Assembly: GCA_017464305.1 (NCBI GenBank)
Contig: JAFUDS010000005.1
Span: forward strand, 124,001-188,000
Source of the DNA: Clostridia bacterium
GTDB taxonomy: Bacteria > Bacillota > Clostridia > Christensenellales > Aristaeellaceae
DNA length: 64,000 nt
Reading direction: 5' to 3'
Positions 43,724 to 54,956 of the stretch are shown here, one piece after another (the first letter of the stretch is position 1; each line of letters starts with the position of its first letter). A model generated the notes under the pieces. It made no database searches and was not told where the DNA came from. It saw nothing but the letters and a program-made list of their open reading frames with translations. Made by a program: the position numbers and the translations under genes.

Positions 43724-43954
43724 CTGTTTCGTCGTATGCGCGCGGGAGATTGCCCAGGGCTCCACCCGTTTTTCACTGAAAACAGTCCACTGGACTGTTT
43801 TCCGGGCGTGAAAAACCCCTCCGGGGCACGCTCTCGCTCCGTTCCAGACGTAGCGGCACAAAGCGGCTGTCTTCGGGCGAGCCCTCGCCACCCACTAAGT
43901 GCCGACGTCTTCCAAGGGCCCCTGAGTGAAACATCCCTTCGCACGACGAAACAG
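43724..43954 (+). repeat. dispersed intergenic element, copy 2
   Basis: Core 43736-43942 has the family ends (TGCGCGCGGGAG and ATCCCTTCGC). The flanks CTGTTTCGTCGT (43724-43735) and ACGACGAAACAG (43943-43954) are a perfect 12-bp inverted repeat. Inside is an extra palindrome, AACAGTCCACTGGACTGTT. It lies in the divergent gap between the rph fusion and ruvC; ruvC starts 35 bp after it. Confidence 0.85.
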
Positions 43955-43988
43955 CGCCGTAATATTGCATAGAAACGAGGCAAACAGA

Positions 43989-44483
43989 TTGATCGTTCTT
44001 GGCATTGACCCGGGATATGCCCTGATGGGATGGGGCGTGGTGGAAAGCGTCGGCAGCCGCATGCGGCTGATTAACTATGGCTGCGTGGAGACGAAGGCTG
44101 GAGTGCCGATGCAAACCCGGCTACGGACGCTGCAGCTGGGGGTTCGGGATCTGCTGCAAATCTACAAACCGGACGACGTAGCCTTTGAGGAGCTGTTTTT
44201 CGCCCGCAATGTGACCACCGCCCTCATGGTGGGCGCGGCCCGCGGCGCCGCCATCATCGCCGCAGCGGAGTATACGGAAAACCTGTACGAATATACCCCC
44301 ATGCAGATCAAGCAGGCCGTTACCGGATACGGCAAGGCGGATAAGAAGCAGGTCCAGCAGATGGTAAAGCTGCTGCTGAAAATGGATACCATCCCCAAGC
44401 CGGATGACGCGGCGGACGCCATCGCCTGCGCCATCACCCATTGCCAAACCGGCCCCGCCAAATCCCAGTTCATGATGAAATAA
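43989..44483 (+). CDS. ruvC: Holliday junction resolvase RuvC
   Basis: 164 residues from TTG at 43989, with GAGG 8 bp upstream; the upstream in-frame ATG is inside repeat DNA. Acidic active-site residues are visible in VLGIDPGYALMGWG near 4, VAFEELFFARN near 66 and KPDDAADAIACAI near 137. It cuts Holliday junctions. Unlike many Bacillota where ruvCAB cluster, it is on the opposite strand, split from ruvA by the rph fusion and a repeat. Confidence 0.93.
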   Translation: MIVLGIDPGYALMGWGVVESVGSRMRLINYGCVETKAGVPMQTRLRTLQLGVRDLLQIYKPDDVAFEELFFARNVTTALMVGAARGAAIIAAAEYTENLYEYTPMQIKQAVTGYGKADKKQVQQMVKLLLKMDTIPKPDDAADAIACAITHCQTGPAKSQFMMK

Positions 44484-44569
44484 TTCGATCTGCCGTCGTA
44501 GTCAATTGCCTCCCTGTCAGGTAGGCAAAAGTTCAATGGCGAACAGCGTCGCCAGGGAGGAGAATCTTC

Positions 44570-47014
44570 TTGAGCACATCGGAAAAAAAGCATGTTTTCA
44601 TCAGCTATAAATCAGATGAGTTCGATACAGCCAATTGGGTTCGGTCTATTCTGGAAACAAATGGCATTTCATGCTGGATGGCTCCCAGGGATATCCCAGG
44701 CGGTTCCAGTTACGCCGCAGAAATACCCGCGGCGATCCGCTCCTGCCGTGTATTCGTTGTCATTCTCTCTCAAAAGGCCCAAGAATCCACTTGGGTACCC
44801 AAAGAACTGGATATCGCCATTAATCATCATAAGATCATCATGCCCTTTATGCTGGAGGATTTCCAACTACGGGATGATTTTAATTTTTACCTGTCAAACG
44901 TACAGCGATACGCAGCTTACGAAAACAAGTCCCGCGCCATGGAGCGAATGATCCGAGAAATCCAGGCGATTCTCGAAGTGTACCCGAACAGCCAACCCAT
45001 CATCCGACAGGAAACATCAAAACAAAACAAGCCCCCGTCTGCCACTCAACAAAAAAGAATCAAACAATGGATCATCATTTCCGCTTGTCTTACGCTGCTC
45101 ATCTGCGGCGGAATATTCGGGCGTTTCGTTCTTTCTCCCACAGGGGAGTCCAGGAGCCATTCGAGAGAAGGAACAGAGCCGGCACAGATGGCCGAAGAAT
45201 CCCTTCCCGCAGACCTGATTGACCAACTGTATCACATCACGGTCATCGCGCCTGAACGTATGACCGTGAAAAATTTCAACACCGCCAAAAAAATACTGAA
45301 CGGTAGAATCGAATTGTTCTCCGACGGAAAATCCTATCAGTTAGAAGAGCAGGAGGATCGATTAGATTTGTTTCTTCCAGTGGATTCCTTTGCCATGGAA
45401 ACCATCGAGACCGCCCTTCGATGCTACATCACCAGAGCGATTAATTTATACATGATAGACAACGCCCTCGACTCCAGGGTAATTCCGATTTCCCGGAATG
45501 ATCTGGCCAGTGTGGCCCTGCACACAGGCACGATTCCTGGAGTAGATGCCGCATCATACGGAGTAACTGATCCAGAATACCAGTACATTACGATGGAACT
45601 AACAGATGATTTTGTTTCAGAAAACAAAGAAACCTATGAAGGATGGGAAGAACTGACCTTTGCGCAGGATGTAGTTGAGTTTCCAGACAGCTATGCTCGA
45701 TACTACACTTTCCCTTCTGGAGACAGCAAAACATTCTATGTGCTGAACAATGATCTGGGCGGAAAATATAGCGAATTGGTTGTCTATAACCTGACGCACG
45801 AGAGTCTTTCTGAAAGCTTCCGGTTTATGGTCGACGCAAACTACCAAGTCACCTGGGAAACAGCTACAGAGCACAAATCCGACTGGGGAACCCTGCAGCG
45901 CGAGTATCAGGAGTTTACAGAAGGAACTATTACATTCACTCTTTCCTCGGGGAACATATCCATGGGCGAACTGATTGACGAGTGCACCGCTTTAAAACTA
46001 CGGCTGGATGTGTTAGGAAATCCATACGCATTTGGACTCAGCAGCTACGGGGATGGCTACCTCATCGCGATAAAAACCAAACCAGACCGAATTAATCAGC
46101 ATATCATCGACCTGATGCGGAAGAGCATCTACCCCAAAGTCCGTTCCTTAACCTATGAAGATCTCGGTCTGAGCGCAAGGAGCGTGATTCTGAAAGAAAA
46201 GGAATCAGGCAAGTATTCGCTGCAACTGGAAGGTCATGGAGCGGATTCTTCTAACAGAGCAAAGCTGCAAGCCACGCTGGCTCTGAGCCAACAGGTAAAC
46301 GAAGAAGTGTATTTCTATATCAATGATCTGCCACTTTTCCCGATGAAAGATGTCCTCTATCATGATGACACCGCTGTCATCGATGTCGCGAATTATTGCT
46401 TTATACGGGATGGCAAGATCACGCTGGAACCAATCACCGCAGAAAATCAATGGTATGTGAATTACATCAAAACACTGCTCGAAACAGAATCCTCCATGAA
46501 AGCCACTCTTTCCTATGACGCAATGCAAATGAACCCCGACAGTCAAGGTATTTTGCCAACTGAGGAAGAACTGTCGCCATCCCTGTACTCCAATGCGTCC
46601 CAATTGGAAAACATCGTCCGTCAAAGTTGGTCCCAGGCCAGCACATCCTATGATTCAGGTTTCCTCTCCGTTTTTCTCCATCTTTCTCTGGATGATCGTT
46701 TTATCAGCCGATCTGTCCATCTAACTGAAGAAATCTTCCATGCGCTGAAAGGAAAAGATCTTTACCTTACAGAAATCGGCTTCTATCTCATTGATGAAGA
46801 GGGCGAAGAGAGAGCCCGCATCTTCCTCCAAAGGTCATATCTTGAACCCCAAGCCACCGGTGAAGTTTTACCCGAGTCTGATACTGACAACTTCCATTAT
46901 TACGGCATTATGAAAAATGGCATGATTGACGATTATCGCCAGCCGATGCTTGATGCATTAGAGGCGTCAGAATTCTATCAAACCCATCGAACGGACTATT
47001 CCGTGATCTACTAA
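44570..47014 (+). CDS. TIR-domain membrane protein with large extracytoplasmic domain
   Basis: 814 residues from TTG at 44570 (AGGGAGGAG 7 bp upstream). Residues 6-135 are a TIR domain: HVFISYKSDEFDTANWV, GISCWMAPRDIPGGSSYA near 32, and STWVPKELDIAINHHKIIMP near 73. Glu79 in WVPKE aligns with the catalytic Glu of NAD-cleaving TIR proteins such as SARM1. One membrane helix (about 166-188, IIISACLTLLICGGIF) is followed by some 620 residues outside. Two stretches there (about 235-270 and 467-505) look alike and faintly like the SecD P1 fold. TIR in front of TM and an ectodomain suggests a receptor with a cytoplasmic NADase. It is AT-richer than its neighbours. Function is inferred. Confidence 0.8.
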   Translation: MSTSEKKHVFISYKSDEFDTANWVRSILETNGISCWMAPRDIPGGSSYAAEIPAAIRSCRVFVVILSQKAQESTWVPKELDIAINHHKIIMPFMLEDFQLRDDFNFYLSNVQRYAAYENKSRAMERMIREIQAILEVYPNSQPIIRQETSKQNKPPSATQQKRIKQWIIISACLTLLICGGIFGRFVLSPTGESRSHSREGTEPAQMAEESLPADLIDQLYHITVIAPERMTVKNFNTAKKILNGRIELFSDGKSYQLEEQEDRLDLFLPVDSFAMETIETALRCYITRAINLYMIDNALDSRVIPISRNDLASVALHTGTIPGVDAASYGVTDPEYQYITMELTDDFVSENKETYEGWEELTFAQDVVEFPDSYARYYTFPSGDSKTFYVLNNDLGGKYSELVVYNLTHESLSESFRFMVDANYQVTWETATEHKSDWGTLQREYQEFTEGTITFTLSSGNISMGELIDECTALKLRLDVLGNPYAFGLSSYGDGYLIAIKTKPDRINQHIIDLMRKSIYPKVRSLTYEDLGLSARSVILKEKESGKYSLQLEGHGADSSNRAKLQATLALSQQVNEEVYFYINDLPLFPMKDVLYHDDTAVIDVANYCFIRDGKITLEPITAENQWYVNYIKTLLETESSMKATLSYDAMQMNPDSQGILPTEEELSPSLYSNASQLENIVRQSWSQASTSYDSGFLSVFLHLSLDDRFISRSVHLTEEIFHALKGKDLYLTEIGFYLIDEEGEERARIFLQRSYLEPQATGEVLPESDTDNFHYYGIMKNGMIDDYRQPMLDALEASEFYQTHRTDYSVIY

Positions 47015-47131
47015 CCTCTTCGATGCTGCGGCCGTCAGCCATGAACGAGTCTCAACCGTTTTGGATTTTACTAAAATCATGACCCTGCTCTGTCCAACCC
47101 TGGTACAGAGCCCGCTGAAAGGAGCCTTATT

Positions 47132-48556
47132 GTGAGCATAAAAGGAAAACAGCTATTCCGCGGATTCCTATTTTCCCTTCCTCTGATCATCGGGACCATC
47201 GGGTTGAAAATCAGCGGTGAATCCCTTTTGAACTCAATGTTTGATACCGTGACCATGTACGCGCTTAACTATGGAACGGAGCCAGTCAACCAGCTGGTGG
47301 AAATTGCGCGGTGGACAGCCCCACTCGCCACAGCGACGGGAATTATTCTGATGATTCAGCCAGTTCTCCGGGCGCTGCACGCAAAATTACTGTCTCTGCG
47401 CAAAGAGTCTATCGCTGTATATGGAGACCCTGCGCTCTTCCATCGTCTCCAGGCAAAGTATCCCGTCATTCAAGGGGATCAGGAATTGTTATCTGCCCAT
47501 ACTTATCTTCTTTTTGGAGAGGAGCAGGAAAATCTGGATTTTTATCAGGAGCATCTTGCAGCCCTATGTAATCATGAAGTTTATCTTCGTTGCGCTTCCC
47601 TTCCTTCTCAAATGATACAAAATCCCCGCTTACATCTGTACAACCCTGAAGAAACAGCTGCCCGACTCTATTGGAAACAGCGGAATTTAATTTCCCTTTT
47701 CCAATCTCATCATTTCACACTTAATATTGTTATCATTGGCTTTGGACGCATCGGAGAAGAACTCCTTTTCTGGGGACTTCAAAACAACATCTTTTCACCA
47801 GATCAATCCATTGCCTATCATGTTTTCGGGGAAGAAAACGGATATCGGCTGCTGCATCCCGGTTTGAACAAGATCAGCGACGCCATACAGTTTTACTCCC
47901 CGGCCTGGTGGGAGCAACTGTCCTTGCTTCAGCAGGCCGATCGAATTATCATCTGCCAACAGGAAAACCAGATACAGACCGTTCAGAAGCTGTTATCCGC
48001 CCTACCCGGTAAGGATCTGGACATCTGGGCCTCACATGTAAAAACTTTCACGCTCTGTGAGGAACAGAAACGGCTCAAATTATTCGACTGGAAAGAAGAA
48101 GCGCTACGCCCCGAATACATTTTTGACGCCACCACCTTATGCCGAGCCAAAGCAATCAGTTTACGATACGCACAGCTCTACAGTCAGAATTCGACCTCTA
48201 CGCTGGATATAGAAACCGAATGGATGAAGCTCAGTTCCTTTGCGCGCTATTCCAACATCAGCAGCGCGGATTATCACGAGATTCGCCTCCGCATGATGCA
48301 ATCCGCAGGTCTTTCCACAGATGGCAGCAACTTGACAAATGATCAGCTCGAACAGCTCAGTGAACTAGAGCACATCCGATGGTGCCGTTTTCATTTCCTG
48401 AACAACTGGAAATACGGAAAGCCCTTGAAAGGCGCGACAAAAGATTCTCTTCTTCGAATTCATCAAGATCTTCTTCCCTACGCTGAACTAAGCGATGCCG
48501 AAAAAGAGAAGGATCGTGAAGCCATCCGTGTGCTTCTGAGTGTGCGAGAATACTAA
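47132..48556 (+). CDS. membrane TrkA-N (RCK-like) protein with C-terminal RyR domain
   Basis: 474 residues from GTG at 47132 (AAAGGAG 7 bp upstream). Two membrane helices lie near 9-26 and 62-83. Then come RCK-like Rossmann units, the second with the dinucleotide loop IIGFGRIGEELLF at 201-213. Residues 405-470 match the bacterial RyR domain: LSELEHIRWCRFHFLNNWKY and DLLPYAELSDAEKEKDREAI. It is a known architecture (2TM-TrkA-N-RyR) of unproven function. RyR domains have been proposed, from comparative genomics, to bind nucleotide-derived ligands. It follows the TIR gene by 117 bp on the same strand, suggesting a pair in which TIR makes and RyR senses a signal. Confidence 0.8.
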   Translation: MSIKGKQLFRGFLFSLPLIIGTIGLKISGESLLNSMFDTVTMYALNYGTEPVNQLVEIARWTAPLATATGIILMIQPVLRALHAKLLSLRKESIAVYGDPALFHRLQAKYPVIQGDQELLSAHTYLLFGEEQENLDFYQEHLAALCNHEVYLRCASLPSQMIQNPRLHLYNPEETAARLYWKQRNLISLFQSHHFTLNIVIIGFGRIGEELLFWGLQNNIFSPDQSIAYHVFGEENGYRLLHPGLNKISDAIQFYSPAWWEQLSLLQQADRIIICQQENQIQTVQKLLSALPGKDLDIWASHVKTFTLCEEQKRLKLFDWKEEALRPEYIFDATTLCRAKAISLRYAQLYSQNSTSTLDIETEWMKLSSFARYSNISSADYHEIRLRMMQSAGLSTDGSNLTNDQLEQLSELEHIRWCRFHFLNNWKYGKPLKGATKDSLLRIHQDLLPYAELSDAEKEKDREAIRVLLSVREY

Positions 48557-48565
48557 GGAACCGCG

Positions 48566-50206
48566 TTATTTCTGCATCATCACTTTCCAGCAATTAAACT
48601 CTGGAATCCTAACATACCGACCCGCGTCTCTGAAGCCTGCTCGGACAATATACTGCGCCAGCTTTTGCGGGCTGTCAATCAGCGATGGATCCGTCAAATA
48701 AACGTAAAAAACACTCAACTTGTCCTTCCGCGCTTGTCGGAACACATGCTGTAATTCCTTTTTTGAACCGCACCTATATTCGTGTATATTATCCGCCCTG
48801 TGAACGTCAGTAATGATCGCCAACTCCGGAGACATATCCCGATTCCATCGGTAATAATAATCCGCCCGATCCAGACCAACCATGCAGTGGCTATATTCCA
48901 ACGGATTCCCTTTTGCATTCTGATCCCATGTGGCATCCAGCGCAGTCCATCTTCCATCAATTTGCACCAAATTCCACAGATGATTTGACGACGCCAGGTC
49001 CCCCTTTTCCTGTCCCGGAAGGTTGCTGCATCCGTACTGATACCTTACCTTCAACCCTGCTAATCCGGCGCACAAATAGAAAGCATCCGCGTACCCATCA
49101 CAGTTTGCTTCTCCGTTCAGCAGCGGTCCTATCGCGCAGTCATCCTCATCCGTTGTCTCATCAATAGTATAAACTGTTCGCCGACCGATGGCCTCGGAAA
49201 TCGCCAGCGCCATATTCCCCTGATGATGAGTCGGTATGCCCTGAAGCAAATCCCGCGCGGCCTGCAAGGTTAATTTTTCACGCACAGAGAGCCTGCTTTC
49301 CTGTTTCATCCTAACTAACTGTAAAATACGAAATCCAGGATAATAGTTCAAGTACCGCAGGCTGACATGCCCCTGAATAGGATTAGTATGCATATGAAAC
49401 ATGCGCACTCCCGCATGCTGAGTCAAGTCCACGCTTCGAGGGATTCTCTTTCCAGCATTGTTTAGAATTCCCTCTTGAAGCTGTTTGATCAGCTGTGGAT
49501 GGCATATAAACTCAATCATCTCCGGAAGCTTTGCCGTTGATTGTTCCACATATTGAATAATACTCTGCAGGCTGTCTAAAACGGGTAGTTTCGCATTTGT
49601 ACTTTGAGCTTTTGAAAAATCTACAGGCTTTTTCTGCTCTTTTCTTGAAGGTTGATACTTTGCCGTTTGTTGGGTTGCAGCGGATCTCTGGTAGGACGGC
49701 TGCTCCTTCGGGCAGCTCACGAAAAGCTTCTCCCCGCTGACACTTTGATAGAAGGATATAGCTGTATATCTGATCATTCCCTGTTCCGGATACAACGTGT
49801 ATTCGCTCCGGATAACCCCCGCTGTCCCTTCCGCCAACCTTATTCCCTGCCAGTTATTCTCCGATATCGCGTCCATCAAGGGTTGGGAAAGCACAATCCG
49901 AAATGTTTCTCCTGTGTTTTTTTCCATATTCCGCAAGGTTTGTATCAATTCTTCTCTGGTTTGAGAGTAAAATACAGGCTCTGCGCAGGGAAACAGCTGA
50001 TGGATTTTCAGATAGCCTTCTTCCACATTGATTCGGGCAAAGGGTTCATATCCAGCCCGTGCTAAAAGGCGAATCAGCGGAAGCCCATTTTCGACCGTCA
50101 TCTGTTTCATCATCAACGGTGGAAGCCGCATATCGATTTCATTCAGCCCTTGCTGGAAACAGGTGCGAAAATACTCCACCATTTCCCTGCTCATGGCTTC
50201 ATCCAT
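48566..50206 (-). CDS. transglutaminase-like cysteine protease-fold protein
   Basis: 546 residues from the ATG at 50206 (GGGGG 8 bp upstream). The transglutaminase core shows the triad Cys369 (GEANCDGYADAF), His409 (SSNHLWNLV) and Asp424 (WTALDATWD). Around it are three similar alpha/beta modules, near 75-160, 205-300 and 485-546 (each with a helix, a hydrophobic strand and a Y/F-rich end). There is no signal peptide or helix, so it is cytoplasmic unless exported otherwise. It may act as a protease or cross-linker. It ends 9 bp from the RyR gene, tail to tail, and shares the AT-rich composition of the island. Confidence 0.82.
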   Translation of the reverse strand: MDEAMSREMVEYFRTCFQQGLNEIDMRLPPLMMKQMTVENGLPLIRLLARAGYEPFARINVEEGYLKIHQLFPCAEPVFYSQTREELIQTLRNMEKNTGETFRIVLSQPLMDAISENNWQGIRLAEGTAGVIRSEYTLYPEQGMIRYTAISFYQSVSGEKLFVSCPKEQPSYQRSAATQQTAKYQPSRKEQKKPVDFSKAQSTNAKLPVLDSLQSIIQYVEQSTAKLPEMIEFICHPQLIKQLQEGILNNAGKRIPRSVDLTQHAGVRMFHMHTNPIQGHVSLRYLNYYPGFRILQLVRMKQESRLSVREKLTLQAARDLLQGIPTHHQGNMALAISEAIGRRTVYTIDETTDEDDCAIGPLLNGEANCDGYADAFYLCAGLAGLKVRYQYGCSNLPGQEKGDLASSNHLWNLVQIDGRWTALDATWDQNAKGNPLEYSHCMVGLDRADYYYRWNRDMSPELAIITDVHRADNIHEYRCGSKKELQHVFRQARKDKLSVFYVYLTDPSLIDSPQKLAQYIVRAGFRDAGRYVRIPEFNCWKVMMQK

Positions 50207-50220
50207 CACCTATTCCCCCT

Positions 50221-50433
50221 TCAGGTCTTCCCCTTGATCCTGTTTTTCTCCGCCTTTTTATCTGAAATCTTACCACCAATCCAAAGAAGAAGGGTGCCGA
50301 GCAGCGCAAGGATGATTCCAGGTAGGATCTCTTTCTCTTCTATCGCGATCAACAGTCCAGACAGCAGAAACCCTGTGCCCAATAGAGACACTACTGTTGC
50401 CAAGAATGAATTTCTGTACCACACTACCTTCAT
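50221..50433 (-). CDS. small two-helix membrane protein
   Basis: 70 residues from the ATG at 50433 (GGGGAGGAC upstream). It has two hydrophobic stretches, about 9-30 (FLATVVSLLGTGFLLSGLLI) and 38-53 (GIILALLGTLLLWIGG), and a basic tail KKAEKNRIKGK. No family is recognised. It lies 14 bp upstream of the transglutaminase-like gene on the same strand, so the two are probably co-transcribed and may act together at the membrane. Confidence 0.6.
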   Translation of the reverse strand: MKVVWYRNSFLATVVSLLGTGFLLSGLLIAIEEKEILPGIILALLGTLLLWIGGKISDKKAEKNRIKGKT

Positions 50434-50518
50434 TTGCGTCCTCCCCATATTCTACGGTACGAAAGCGGAAATTTGATCATCCTCATGAAACGCGACATAG
50501 ACTCGCTCTTGCTTTCAA

Positions 50519-52381
50519 CTATGCCAGCACTGTTTCCTCCGGTTGAGCGTTCAAAATCCTCATAAACTCCTCCCCCGTGATGGTTTCCTGCTTCAGCAGG
50601 AACGCCGCCAGCTCGTGGAGCTTTGCCTCATTTTCCCGCAGAATCTGGTCCGCCTTGCTCCGGGCCTGCTTCACCAGGCTCACCACCTGATCGTCGATCT
50701 TCTCGGAATAGGCCGGGCTGCAGGCCAGGGAGGTATCCCCGCCCAGATACTGATTGGTCACCGTTTCCATAGCGACCATGCCAAATTCGCCCATTCCGTA
50801 TCGGGTAATCATCCCCCGAGCCAGCTTGGTAGCCTTCTCGATGTCGTTGGAGGCGCCAGTGGTAATAGAATGGAAGATCAGCTGCTCCGCCGCCTGGCCC
50901 CCTGTCAGGGTGACGATCTTGTTCAGCAGCTCCTCCCGGCTCATCAGGTAATGCTCATCCTCGTCCACCTGCATGGTATATCCCAGGGCGCCGGAGGTCC
51001 GGGGGATGATGGTAATCTTCGTCACCGGAGCGGAATGAGTCTGCATAGCCGCCACCAGGGCATGGCCGATCTCATGGTAGGATACGATTCGCTTCTCATT
51101 CTCAGACATTACGGCGTTCTTCCGCTGATAGCCGGCGATGACCGTCTCCACGCTTTCCATCAGGTCTCCCTGGCTGACCTCGCTGCGTCCCAGCCGAACC
51201 GCCCGCAGAGCTGCCTCGTTGATGATGTTGGCCAAGTCCGCGCCGGAAGCGCCGGAGGTGGCCCGGGCGATCTCCTTCAGATCGATGCCGCTTTCGCATT
51301 TCACGTTCTTCGCGTGCACCCGCAGAATCGCCTCCCGGCCCTGCAGGTCCGGCAGCTCCACCGGCACCCGCCGGTCAAAGCGCCCCGGCCGCAGCAGGGC
51401 AGGATCCAGGCTCTCCGGCCGGTTGGTGGCCGCCAGAATCACCACGCCCTTCTTGCCGTCGAAGCCGTCCATCTCCGTCAGCAGCTGGTTCAAGGTCTGC
51501 TCCCGCTCGTCGTTGCCGCCGATGGCGCCGGCCCCGTCCCGCTTCTTGCCGATGGTATCAATTTCGTCGATAAACACAATGCAGGGCGCCTTTTCATTGG
51601 CCTGCTTGAACAGATCCCGCACCTTGGCGGCGCCCATGCCCACGAACATCTCCACAAATTCCGATCCGGAGATGGAGAAGAAGGGCACCTTCGCCTCCCC
51701 GGCCACCGCCTTGGCCAGCAGGGTCTTGCCCGTGCCGGGAGGGCCCACCAGCAGTGCCCCCTTGGGCAGCTTCGCGCCGATGCCGGCGTACTTGTCCGGA
51801 TGCTCCAGGAAGTCCACGATTTCCTTCAAGGCATCCTTGGCCTCTTCCTCCCCCGCCACGTCCGCAAAGGTGACGCCGGTTTCCTTGTCCGCCACGATCT
51901 TGGCGTTGGCCTTGCCGAAGGACAGGGCGTTCATGCCCCCGCCCATGCGCTTTGTCAGCTGGTTGCTCAGCAGATGGCCCAGGCCCCAGAAGATGGCGAT
52001 GGGCAAAATCCAGCTGAACACGAAGGACAGCAGGGTGTTATTCTGGGTCGGAATCGACGCGCTGAAACGAACCCCCGCGTTTTGCAGCCGGGTGATCAGC
52101 CCGTCATCCGGGAAAACCGCCGTCTTGTACAACTCCTCCTGCCCCTGGTCGTTGGTGGCCACAAAGATGATCTGGTCCGCCTCCTGCTCCAGGGAAACCT
52201 CGCTGACCCGGCCCGCGTCCACCCAGGTCAGAAAATCGCTGTATCCGACCACCTGAATTTGCCGCGCCATCATCGTAGGAAAGATGAAGGCGTTCAGCAG
52301 CAGCACGATCGTCGTTACGATCACCACATAGAAGATCAACGGCCTTTTCGCGTTGTGATCTCCATCATTGTTTTCAAACAT
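50519..52381 (-). CDS. ftsH: ATP-dependent zinc metalloprotease FtsH
   Basis: 620 residues. Two membrane helices (about 15-35 and 118-138) flank an outside loop. The AAA module has [13 protein letters not shown] near 213, [14 protein letters not shown] near 271 and [17 protein letters not shown] near 331. The protease has the zinc motif HEIGH, where most have HEAGH, and the third ligand in [21 protein letters not shown]. It degrades membrane and regulatory proteins. A good ribosome site (AGGAGAGG) precedes the ATG. It is not next to tilS-hpt as in Bacillus. Confidence 0.97.
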
Positions 52382-53046: not shown

Positions 53047-53218
53047 CTGTTCAGTCGTGCGAAGGGATGTTTCACTCAGGGGCCCTTGGAGGACGTCGGT
53101 ACTTAGCGGGTGGCAAGGGTGCTTGCGCCCGAAGGCAGCCGCTTTGTACCGCTACGTCCGGAACGGAGGCGCGAGCCGTGCCCCGGAGGGTAACTCCCGC
53201 GCGCATACGACTGGACAG
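53047..53218 (-). repeat. dispersed intergenic element, copy 3 (reversed)
   Basis: Read left to right it starts GCGAAGGGATGTTTCACTCA and ends GTAACTCCCGCGCGCAT. Flanks CTGTTCAGTCGT (53047-53058) and ACGACTGGACAG (53207-53218) pair over 12 positions with a single G-T wobble. It is the shortest, most compact copy, without inserted palindromes. It lies between glpK and the DtxR-family gene, 8 bp from the glpK stop. Confidence 0.85.
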
Positions 53219-53225
53219 CTATCTC

Positions 53226-54716
53226 CTAATGTTCAATCCACCCCATTGCCCGATCTACTGCCTTATGCCATCCCCGCAGGTTCAGCAGGCGGGTCGCTTC
53301 ATCCATTCGGGGCGCAAACTCCAAATCCTTCTGCCACAGGCTGGCCAGCTCCTCCGTGCCGCTATACAGCCCGCAGCCCAGCCCCGCCAGCAGCGCTGCT
53401 CCCAGGGCGGTGGTTTCCAGCACCTGTGGCCGGACCACCGGCACGTGGCTGATGTCCGCCTGGAACTGCATCAGGAAGGCATTGGCGCTGGCGCCGCCGT
53501 CCACCTGCAGTCGCTCCGGCTTCCGACCGGAATCCTTGATCATGGCCTGCATCAGATCCTCGCTCTGGTAGGCAATAGCCTCCAGCGCCGCCCGCACGAT
53601 ATGGGCCCGGCCCGTGCCCCGGGTCATGCCCACCAGGGTCCCCCGGGAATACATGTCCCACCAGGGAGCCCCCAGCCCCGTCATGGCGGGCACCAGATAA
53701 ACCCCGCCGGTACTCTGGACGCTCTCCGCCAGGCCCTCGCTCTCGGAGGCCCGGGTGATCATCTTCATCTCATCCCGCAGCCACTGGATGGTGGCGCCCC
53801 CCATAAACACGCTGCCCTCCAGGGCATAGGTGGGCTTGCCGCCGATGCGCCAGGCCATGGTGGTCAAAAGGCCGTTCTGGCTCTGCACCGGCTGATCCCC
53901 GGTGTTCATCAGCATGAAGCATCCCGTGCCATAGGTGTTCTTCACATCCCCCACCTGCCAGCAGGCCTGGCCGAAGAGGCTGGCGTGCTGATCACCGGCC
54001 ATGCCGGTGACCGGGATGGGGCGGCCCAAAATCGCCGGATCCAGCGTGCCGATGAACCCGGAAGAATCCACCACCTGGGGCAGGCAGGCCCGGGGAATCC
54101 CCAGCAGCTTCAGCAGCTCCTCGTCCCAGTCCTGGGTTTTCAGGTTAAACAGCATGGTCCGTCCGGCGTTGGTGGCATCCGTCACATGGGGCCGGCCCGT
54201 CAGCAGATTCCAGCACAGAAAGCTGTCCACCGTACCGAAGCAAAGCTCCCCTTTCTCCGCCCGGTCGTGCAGCTGATAATAGTCCAGCATCCATTTCAGC
54301 TTCGTGCCAGAAAAATACGCATCCGGAATCAGGCCCGTTTTTTCCCGAATCATGTCCCCCTGCCCCGCGGCCACCAGATCCTCCACGATCTGCGCGGTAC
54401 GCCGGCATTGCCAGACGATGGCGTTGCCCACGCACTTCCCCGTCTGCCGATCCCACAGGAAGGTGGTTTCCCGCTGGTTGGTAATGCCGATGGCGGCGAT
54501 GTCTCCCACGTCCACCCCACTGAGATGCACCGCTTCCTTCAGCGCGGTGATCTGGGTGTCCAGGATATCCTCCGGGTCATGCTCCACCCAGCCGGGGTGG
54601 GGGTAGTGCTGCGGAAATTCCACCGCGTGGGAGGCCACGATGACCCCCTCCGCACTGAAGACGATGGCCCGGGAACTGGTGGTTCCCTGGTCCAGCGCAA
54701 CCAAATACTTCGCCAT
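53226..54716 (-). CDS. glpK: glycerol kinase
   Basis: 496 residues from the ATG at 54716 (CGGAGGAAAC upstream). It begins MAKYLVALDQGTTSSRAIVF. FGGY-family motifs are WVEHDPEDILDTQ near 55, ITNQRETTFLWDRQTGK near 79, TYGTGCFMLMNTG near 267 and the ATP-site LQVDGGASANAFLMQFQADI near 406. It phosphorylates glycerol to glycerol 3-phosphate. No glpF or glpD is adjacent. Dispersed elements lie on both sides (copies 3 and 4). Confidence 0.97.
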   Translation of the reverse strand: MAKYLVALDQGTTSSRAIVFSAEGVIVASHAVEFPQHYPHPGWVEHDPEDILDTQITALKEAVHLSGVDVGDIAAIGITNQRETTFLWDRQTGKCVGNAIVWQCRRTAQIVEDLVAAGQGDMIREKTGLIPDAYFSGTKLKWMLDYYQLHDRAEKGELCFGTVDSFLCWNLLTGRPHVTDATNAGRTMLFNLKTQDWDEELLKLLGIPRACLPQVVDSSGFIGTLDPAILGRPIPVTGMAGDQHASLFGQACWQVGDVKNTYGTGCFMLMNTGDQPVQSQNGLLTTMAWRIGGKPTYALEGSVFMGGATIQWLRDEMKMITRASESEGLAESVQSTGGVYLVPAMTGLGAPWWDMYSRGTLVGMTRGTGRAHIVRAALEAIAYQSEDLMQAMIKDSGRKPERLQVDGGASANAFLMQFQADISHVPVVRPQVLETTALGAALLAGLGCGLYSGTEELASLWQKDLEFAPRMDEATRLLNLRGWHKAVDRAMGWIEH

Positions 54717-54751
54717 GTTGTTTCCTCCGATCTGCAAAATAAGCAAACTCC

Positions 54752-54943
54752 GCGTGCGCGCGGGAGTTCCCCTCCGGGGCACGCTCTCTTACCGCAACCT
54801 CAATGGTCGCGACTCCCCACAGGGGAGCTCGCTTCCTTTCGGTTGACCTCACCTCTGGCGAAATTTCCGCCACTGGCGGTCGCCAGAGGTTCGCCCGTTC
54901 CAGACGTCCAAGGGCCCCTGAGTGAAACATCCCTTCGCACGCC
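54752..54943 (+). repeat. dispersed intergenic element, copy 4, with nested repeat
   Basis: The ends match the family (TGCGCGCGGGAGTTCCCCTC at 54755; GGGCCCCTGAGTGAAACATC, then CCTTCGCAC, at the right). The centre is replaced by a family-B repeat (54806-54889), also found alone at 41532-41607. The closing stem is only about 4 bp (GCGT/ACGC). It lies between the beta-propeller gene stop and glpK. Confidence 0.8.
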
Positions 54944-54956
54944 TAATCAATTTCCA

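Follow-up and report, generated by a model that had tools for sequence, protein, structure and literature searches.

A membrane TIR protein and an RCK-RyR protein on an inserted bacterial island belong to a recurring candidate signalling system

The DNA analysed here, in the following called the window, is a stretch of 64,000 nucleotides (nt) from a Clostridia bacterium (GenBank assembly GCA_017464305.1, contig JAFUDS010000005.1, positions 124,001 to 188,000), the source assembly of which comprises 2.53 Mb in 51 contigs and is 68.6% complete. Between the convergent genes ruvC and ftsH the open reading frame (ORF) list of the window shows four genes, and the island formed by them was found to be genuine and discretely inserted, and to belong to a recurring system in which a membrane TIR protein is paired with an RCK-RyR channel protein. 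With regard to function, we judge it modestly probable that the membrane TIR protein is a receptor making an NAD-derived signal and that the RyR domain binds this signal, gating the RCK channel.

TIR enzymes convert NAD into ADP-ribose-type products, which RyR domains are able to bind, and RCK rings gate pores. If NADase chemistry, ligand and gating follow these families, the outer domain of the gene 1 product would meet a stimulus at the cell surface and cluster the TIR domains, the cytoplasmic TIR domain would then turn NAD into an ADP-ribose-type nucleotide, and the RyR domain of the gene 2 product would bind this nucleotide, whereupon the RCK ring would move and the pore would open or close. 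The ion flux and the change in membrane potential would most simply amount to an immune or stress response that limits itself. For the majority of the fetched relatives, the responder would be a canonical K+ channel together with a second RCK-RyR subunit, whereas the window holds a single relative lacking the filter. The stimulus and the defence role are guesses, and the ion, the direction, the stimulus and phage defence are the least certain parts of the scheme.

A preliminary description, made from the letters of the DNA, had assigned to gene 1 a TIR domain with the glutamate of a WVPKE motif, a single helix and a long outer domain, and this architecture was recovered in all its parts (Table 1). 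The gene starts with TTG behind a GGAGGAG ribosome-binding site (by eye). The putative catalytic Glu79 (nt 44804-44806), located by eye within WVPKE, aligns with the glutamate of 46 of the 55 TIR proteins encoded in the operons of relatives. A weak ThsB_TIR match (27.3 bits, cut-off 21.2) was also obtained; the TIR domain of gene 1 is fused to a helix and an outer domain. No significant Pfam match was found for the outer domain, and a model of this domain alone (predicted local distance difference test, pLDDT, 34) was not used. A likeness of the outer domain to SecD P1 (window 45887-46639, weak and collinear) was rejected as not significant in the profile-profile comparison (P 0.044, probability 1.2%). 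A TIR protein of genome G028 resembles gene 1 over the whole protein, outer domain included (39%). At locus L142 a homologue of the outer domain (E 8e-20) stands alone as a protein of 501 residues in which a lipobox was seen by eye, and its gene sits between a class A channel gene, that is an RCK-RyR gene with canonical K+ filter, and the gene of a membrane TIR protein (operon order B-A-lipoprotein-TIR, with class B denoting the second RCK-RyR gene). This lipoprotein supports an extracytoplasmic position of the outer domain and links it to the same kind of operon.

Gene 2 starts with GTG behind AAAGGAG (by eye). Its AlphaFold2 model (pLDDT 84.8) contains two membrane helices, residues 3-28 and 54-89, with a further helix at residues 33-45; a simple hydropathy threshold called no helices in this protein. 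Past the second membrane helix the model matches the gating rings of KtrA, CASTOR, TrkA and GsuK. The top Foldseek rows were NAD dehydrogenases, and the gating-ring reading is preferred because of Z, coverage and the relatives. The RyR match (PF02026, E 4.2e-7) reached 30.6 bits against a curated cut-off of 27.4 and is the sole one in the window's own, incomplete genome. A two-helix TrkA-N protein ending in a RyR domain had been expected here: the RyR domain was matched and the helices and the gating-ring fold appeared in the model, but Pfam gave no sequence match to TrkA_N in gene 2. Lacking the filter, the gene 2 product could pass another ion, serve in a regulatory subunit role or be non-conducting.

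Table 1. Coordinates of the island, its genes and their parts, and the flanking genes in the window.
Feature	Position	Strand	Evidence or remark
ruvC	43926-44483	+	left flank of island
Inserted island	44482..50519	.	break against the empty site of G332, drop in G+C content (GC), GC at third codon positions (GC3)
Gene 1, TIR-helix-outer domain, 814 aa, proposed signal-making receptor	44570..47014	+	ORF, Pfam, hydropathy
TIR domain, residues 9-104	44594..44881	+	Pfam TIR_2, E 2.4e-20, match over residues 9-103
Transmembrane helix, residues 168-186, TIR side inside	45071..45127	+	hydropathy; 4 Lys/Arg on the TIR side vs 2 on the other
Outer domain, about residues 190-814 (~625 residues)	45137..47011	+	relatives in G028 membrane TIR protein and L142 lipoprotein
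Gene 2, two-helix RCK-RyR, 474 aa, proposed as signal-gated channel or relative of a channel	47132..48556	+	Pfam, AlphaFold2, fold match
Pore-like helix, residues 33-45, between membrane helices where K+ channels have the pore helix	47228..47266	+	model, alignment with TVGYGD relatives
RCK/TrkA-like gating-ring region, residues 91-330	47402..48121	+	fold match of model
RyR domain, residues 405-469, pocket H414, W417, H444, D461	48344..48538	+	Pfam RyR
Gene 3, transglutaminase-like	48566..50209	-	Transglut_core E 1e-6; Cys, His, Asp by eye
Gene 4, 75-aa two-helix membrane protein	50221..50448	-	two hydrophobic stretches by eye
ftsH	50519-52381	-	right flank of island

The pairing of the two genes recurs elsewhere. 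A scan of genome contigs with gene 2 alone gave no relatives. The scan with the class A alignment gave 261 confirmed relatives, the best 80 of which were fetched; these are the ones most similar to one query and come mostly from metagenome assemblies, many with titles naming the ruminant gut, so that the following fractions describe this set and not the family. The filter T[VI]G[YF]GD was present at 75 of the 80 loci, a second RCK-RyR gene at 68 and a TIR gene within 5 kb at 46, and all three occurred together at 43. At 30 loci the TIR gene lay at most 300 bp away on the same strand, and nine loci had two TIR genes. With T standing for the TIR gene, the gene orders were B-A-T (11), A-B-T (10), B-A-T-T (7) and T facing away from B-A (7), besides others. 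Across 297 genomes of the window's order, a RyR match was found in 51 and a TIR_2 match in 135. Distances were taken between 56 RyR places and 150 TIR places among the matches listed and are lower bounds: at least 14 of the 51 RyR genomes had a TIR within 10 kb, at least 10 within 5 kb and at least 5 within 1 kb, the 14 including the window's own genome and three congeneric genomes (G097, G116, G248) in which the spacing is identical. In a TrkA_N control (150 places among the matches listed, which are the best-scoring part and lean to housekeeping genes) a listed TIR stood within 10 kb in 1 of 133 genomes; the comparison of 14/51 with 1/133 gave a Fisher p of 4e-8, counted by genome with kinship ignored. 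The co-occurrence of membrane TIR and TrkA-N/RyR proteins, on which the preliminary description had staked its proposal, is thus borne out in both surveys. Defence-type genes cluster in general, and with TIR genes missing from 34 of the 80 loci the two genes might be mere island neighbours with no functional link. The close spacing on one strand, the persistence of the association across gene orders, the control and the outer-domain homologue inside the operon at L142 speak against such a coincidence, which we regard as highly improbable.

Both class A members that were scanned matched Ion_trans_2 (E 1.7e-12 and 9.7e-14), and a profile matches KvAP and KcsA at its N-terminus and RyR at its C-terminus. 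With the K+ filter at 75 of the 80 loci, the RCK-RyR family is by its sequences an ion-channel family, a point that the preliminary description had missed. Where the K+ filter would be expected, class B proteins (e.g. L108:9665-11533) repeatedly show a non-canonical motif such as ALCRMFGGVND; they are possibly hetero-tetramer partners or channels of other selectivity. At L088:1-11998 (G181:C235) a single RyR protein, whose reading frame runs off the start of the contig, is followed on its strand by six consecutive membrane TIR genes, which may form a receptor array serving a single responder, and at L079 (G004:C58) four membrane TIR genes on both strands lie beside a RyR-domain protein.

The putative ligand pocket of the RyR domain is conserved in the window and in the relatives. 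In RyDEP, a phage RyR enzyme, H75, W78, H100 and D117 surround the product of 3'cADPR, an isomer of cyclic ADP-ribose (cADPR) (PDB 35TM; PMC13232231). According to the parts of this 2026 preprint used here, two phage RyR homologues bind cADPR at nanomolar level and phage RyR domains bind 2'/3'cADPR. The RyR domain of the window matched chain 35tm_A (E 0.023, query 21-75 to chain 73-122) as well as a RyR1 chimera (E 1.2e-9), and the four RyDEP residues correspond to those listed for gene 2 in Table 1 in a register that was taken from the end points of the match, with a constant offset of one and no printed alignment. Among 75 class A relatives the His, Trp, His and Asp are present in 75, 75, 72 and 72; where no filter was matched (73 proteins, for the most part of class B) the first three are present in 73, 73 and 67, the fourth column being unresolved. 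Such a pocket could also belong to an off-switch, with the RyR protein hydrolysing or sequestering the TIR product as RyDEP does and limiting the signalling, and the His and Asp of the RyDEP catalytic dyad are kept (window H414 and D461; 75 and 72 of the 75 class A proteins). A K+ channel and a gating ring would, however, be superfluous for a buffer, and the other tested phage homologues left the signals undegraded in the parts of the source drawn upon (PMC13232231); we give an off-switch little credence.

The TIR proteins of the relatives' operons point to receptors of one topology. A hydrophobic helix was found in 46 of the 47 complete ones. Lys and Arg were counted in 54 of the 55 operon TIRs (with helix, at least 200 residues; one short fragment left out) and were richer on the TIR side in 51, equal in 3 and reversed in none. 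Among the 17 TIR proteins of relatives scanned for outer-domain families, 12 had a match over the cut-off, namely Sel1 (L074, L114, L130), TPR (L072, L117, L150), LRR (L177), BspA-type LRR (L133) or PQQ/WD40 propellers (L095, L122, L125, L142). Judged by these families, the outer domain is exchangeable, which had likewise escaped the preliminary description. In a wider reading that we advance only tentatively, transmembrane TIR proteins with exchangeable sensors (LRR, TPR, Sel1, beta-propeller) would form a Toll-receptor-like pathway, in which they make a messenger of the cyclic-ADP-ribose type and RyR-domain K+ channels are gated directly by it. The roles might also be exchanged, the RCK-RyR protein being the sensor that reads a cytoplasmic nucleotide or the membrane state and the TIR protein an executioner that simply depletes NAD. 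RCK domains are generally known to sense nucleotides. Moreover, TIR-like NADases such as Swarozyc deplete NAD in the portions of the source considered (PMC13174449). An executioner TIR would nevertheless leave the diverse outer domains, located on the TIR protein, without a role, and the RyR pocket matches that of a binder of TIR products, which makes this exchange of roles rather improbable.

In the column of the catalytic Glu, the nine operon TIRs that lack it have Arg, and these are the short TIR in each of the nine two-TIR loci (L117, L141, L145, L150, L170, L173, L179, L182, L183), the longer membrane TIR protein of which keeps the Glu. A partnership of a dead and an active TIR is possible at these loci. 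The long TIR proteins of L117, L141 (the same gene as in L072) and L150 carry TPR repeats.

Several observations weigh against a TIR receptor that signals to a RyR-gated channel. In the model of gene 2 the pore region (residues 32-49) is of low confidence, and a selectivity filter of the TVGYG type, as seen by alignment with TVGYGD relatives, is absent from this protein. The tested phage RyR homologues included no channel protein, and six of the eight bound cADPR isomers without degrading them (PMC13232231, in the parts used). In genome G028 the relatives of gene 1 and gene 2 lie on different contigs, and five of the 17 scanned TIR proteins (L076, L136, L141, L162 and the short one of L150) had no outer-domain family over the cut-off. 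Most fetched loci are metagenome-derived according to their record titles, and the two from Butyrivibrio strains XPD2006 and VCD2006 (L126, L184) have no nearby TIR. Some of the 34 loci without TIR end with their contigs, but several extend for about 8 kb on both sides. In the scan of ten neighbours of such loci no common partner was found; one of the neighbours encodes a nucleoside hydrolase (L132), to which BLAST found a relative next to L137. For 31 of the 34 a TIR occurs elsewhere in the genome, compared with 135 of the 297 genomes of the window's order; since lineage and size differ, this is only suggestive.

The same parts could form a physiological signalling module for osmotic, cell-wall or host-gut stress that is no defence system. 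The ten scanned neighbours, mainly housekeeping or ordinary signalling genes, are in keeping with such a module, as are the outer domains, which appear to face outwards, and the records of mobile elements. Viral contigs had no match to the membrane TIR protein, and their 22 matches to the channel alignment covered query residues of the pore region only; one unannotated RyR match came from the phage scan, and the plasmid scans yielded two records of RyR type and a single bare ion channel. The fused RCK-RyR and TIR module was found on none of the scanned viral contigs, phage or plasmid records, although a split set is present on a plasmid of Arcobacter. The patchy presence of RyR (51 of 297 genomes), the clean insertion and the fact that TIR and RyR parts elsewhere belong to anti-phage conflict argue in the other direction. 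A purely physiological module is a serious alternative that we nonetheless consider unlikely.

The Arcobacter plasmid, which comes from another phylum, has genes for TrkA_N, RyR and DUF4062-TPR in succession (L226:3742-7465), with recombinase genes and a gene for type I restriction nearby. According to the parts of a 2026 preprint cited here (PMC13174449), DUF4062 belongs to the TIR-like NADases, and Swarozyc NADases act by NAD depletion. On a Rhizobium plasmid (L227:4039-5279) a weak RyR match (21.3 bits, below the cut-off of 27.4) shares a few bases with a caspase-like gene.

The four-gene block between ruvC and ftsH that had been described is present at 44570-50448, and its supposed AT-richness and acquisition as a unit were upheld by composition and by a sister genome. 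In 1-kb windows GC is 0.46-0.49 in the island and 0.53-0.66 in the surroundings (36-60 kb of the window), and GC3 is 0.51-0.57 in the four island genes against 0.74-0.83 in four flanking genes. When 41 genomes of the genus were searched, this led to the sister genome G332, the DNA of which (~95% identity) aligns up to window position 44481 at the end of ruvC and again from 50520 at the end of ftsH, leaving a gap of 74 bp between the two genes and no island. The distance between ruvC and ftsH is ~230 bp in G019, ~130 bp in G018 and ~1.4 kb in G007. The island is a real and discrete insertion, or was cleanly lost in relatives. No integrase was recognised among the window ORFs, no target duplication was evident by eye in the junction letters of the G332 alignment, no tRNA was found in the window, and promoter and terminator scans gave signals near shuffle level. 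A repeat of ~165-185 bp with imperfect inverted ends is located at window positions 43756-43920 and 53053-53237 and near 54734-54956; it is absent at the corresponding places of G332, whereas the window's own genome contains 47 matches to it, many of them partial. It has the look of a small mobile element or of one resembling a miniature inverted-repeat transposable element.

Genes 3 and 4, which had been counted as parts of the system, are probably island cargo outside of it. Neither has a homologue among the ORFs of at least 80 aa in 118 relative loci (L070-L187). As this ORF list could not contain a 75-aa protein, tblastn was used on the DNA of the same loci, which gave no match for gene 4 and one weak match for gene 3 (L084, 89 residues, E 7e-4). 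Gene 4 had no Pfam match over the cut-off. Relatives of the transglutaminase occur in 22 of 60 other genomes searched, and in 61 genomes none shared a contig with a gene 2 match, the window's own genome apart.

If a surface TIR receptor is wired to a RyR-gated K+ channel, innate immunity or stress signalling in bacteria would gain an electrical output, and a logic of animal cells, with NAD-derived messenger, RyR domain and ion channel, would be found in bacterial operons. The family would offer a small, testable setting for the question whether cADPR acts on ion-channel RyR domains; it is large, with the 261 relatives coming from a single scan, and its partners and pocket residues are defined. 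Bacterial TIR signalling systems have been described with NADase or membrane-clustering effectors in the parts of the sources cited (PMC13174449, PMC11204291). Among the matches listed in open-access titles and abstract openings, no description was found of a pairing between bacterial TIR genes and RyR channels or RCK-RyR proteins, which, with subscription journals mostly outside this search, is no proof of absence. A 2015 comparative-genomics paper on nucleotide-centred conflict systems may mention bacterial RyR domains.

Among the known systems, Thoeris with a transmembrane macro-domain ThsA is similar in outline, as far as the cited parts describe it, in that a TIR protein makes an ADP-ribose-type molecule from NAD and a membrane protein with an ADP-ribose-binding domain responds (PMC11204291). 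In the window, however, the TIR protein is itself membrane-bound and has an outer domain, and the responder consists of RyR and RCK instead of macro or SIR2-SLOG; no match to SIR2, SLOG or macro was present among the families listed for the window proteins, and by its effector the system falls outside Thoeris. RyDEP shares the RyR/Repeat12 domain and the same His, Trp, His and Asp pocket, but is, in the parts of the source used, a phage counter-defence protein (PMC13232231), whereas the RyR domain of the window ends a channel-type membrane protein beside a bacterial TIR gene. The Swarozyc DUF4062 proteins are TIR-like NADases, and a DUF4062 gene lies beside the split TrkA_N and RyR genes of Arcobacter; a term search of the main text of their description found no RyR, TrkA or channel (PMC13174449). 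With the RCK-gated K+ channels MthK, GsuK, KtrAB, CASTOR and BK the system has the two-helix pore, the gating-ring fold and, in the relatives, the canonical filter in common, but the copy in the window lacks the filter, by which it falls outside the RCK-gated K+ channels, and ordinary TrkA_N genes rarely have a TIR neighbour (see the control above). None of these five channels is known to carry a RyR domain. In animal ryanodine receptors and the cADPR pathway, too, an ion channel carries the RyR domain and the proposed ligand is a cyclic nucleotide derived from NAD; the window family differs by a K+-type pore with RCK ring in place of a giant Ca2+ channel and by a TIR protein as enzyme, which in the animal pathway is CD38. 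Toll-like receptors, finally, resemble the gene 1 family in having an outer sensor (LRR in L177), one helix and a cytoplasmic TIR domain, whereas the TIR domain of the window is N-terminal and a predicted signal-making enzyme, and we do not claim that the architecture as a whole is of common descent.

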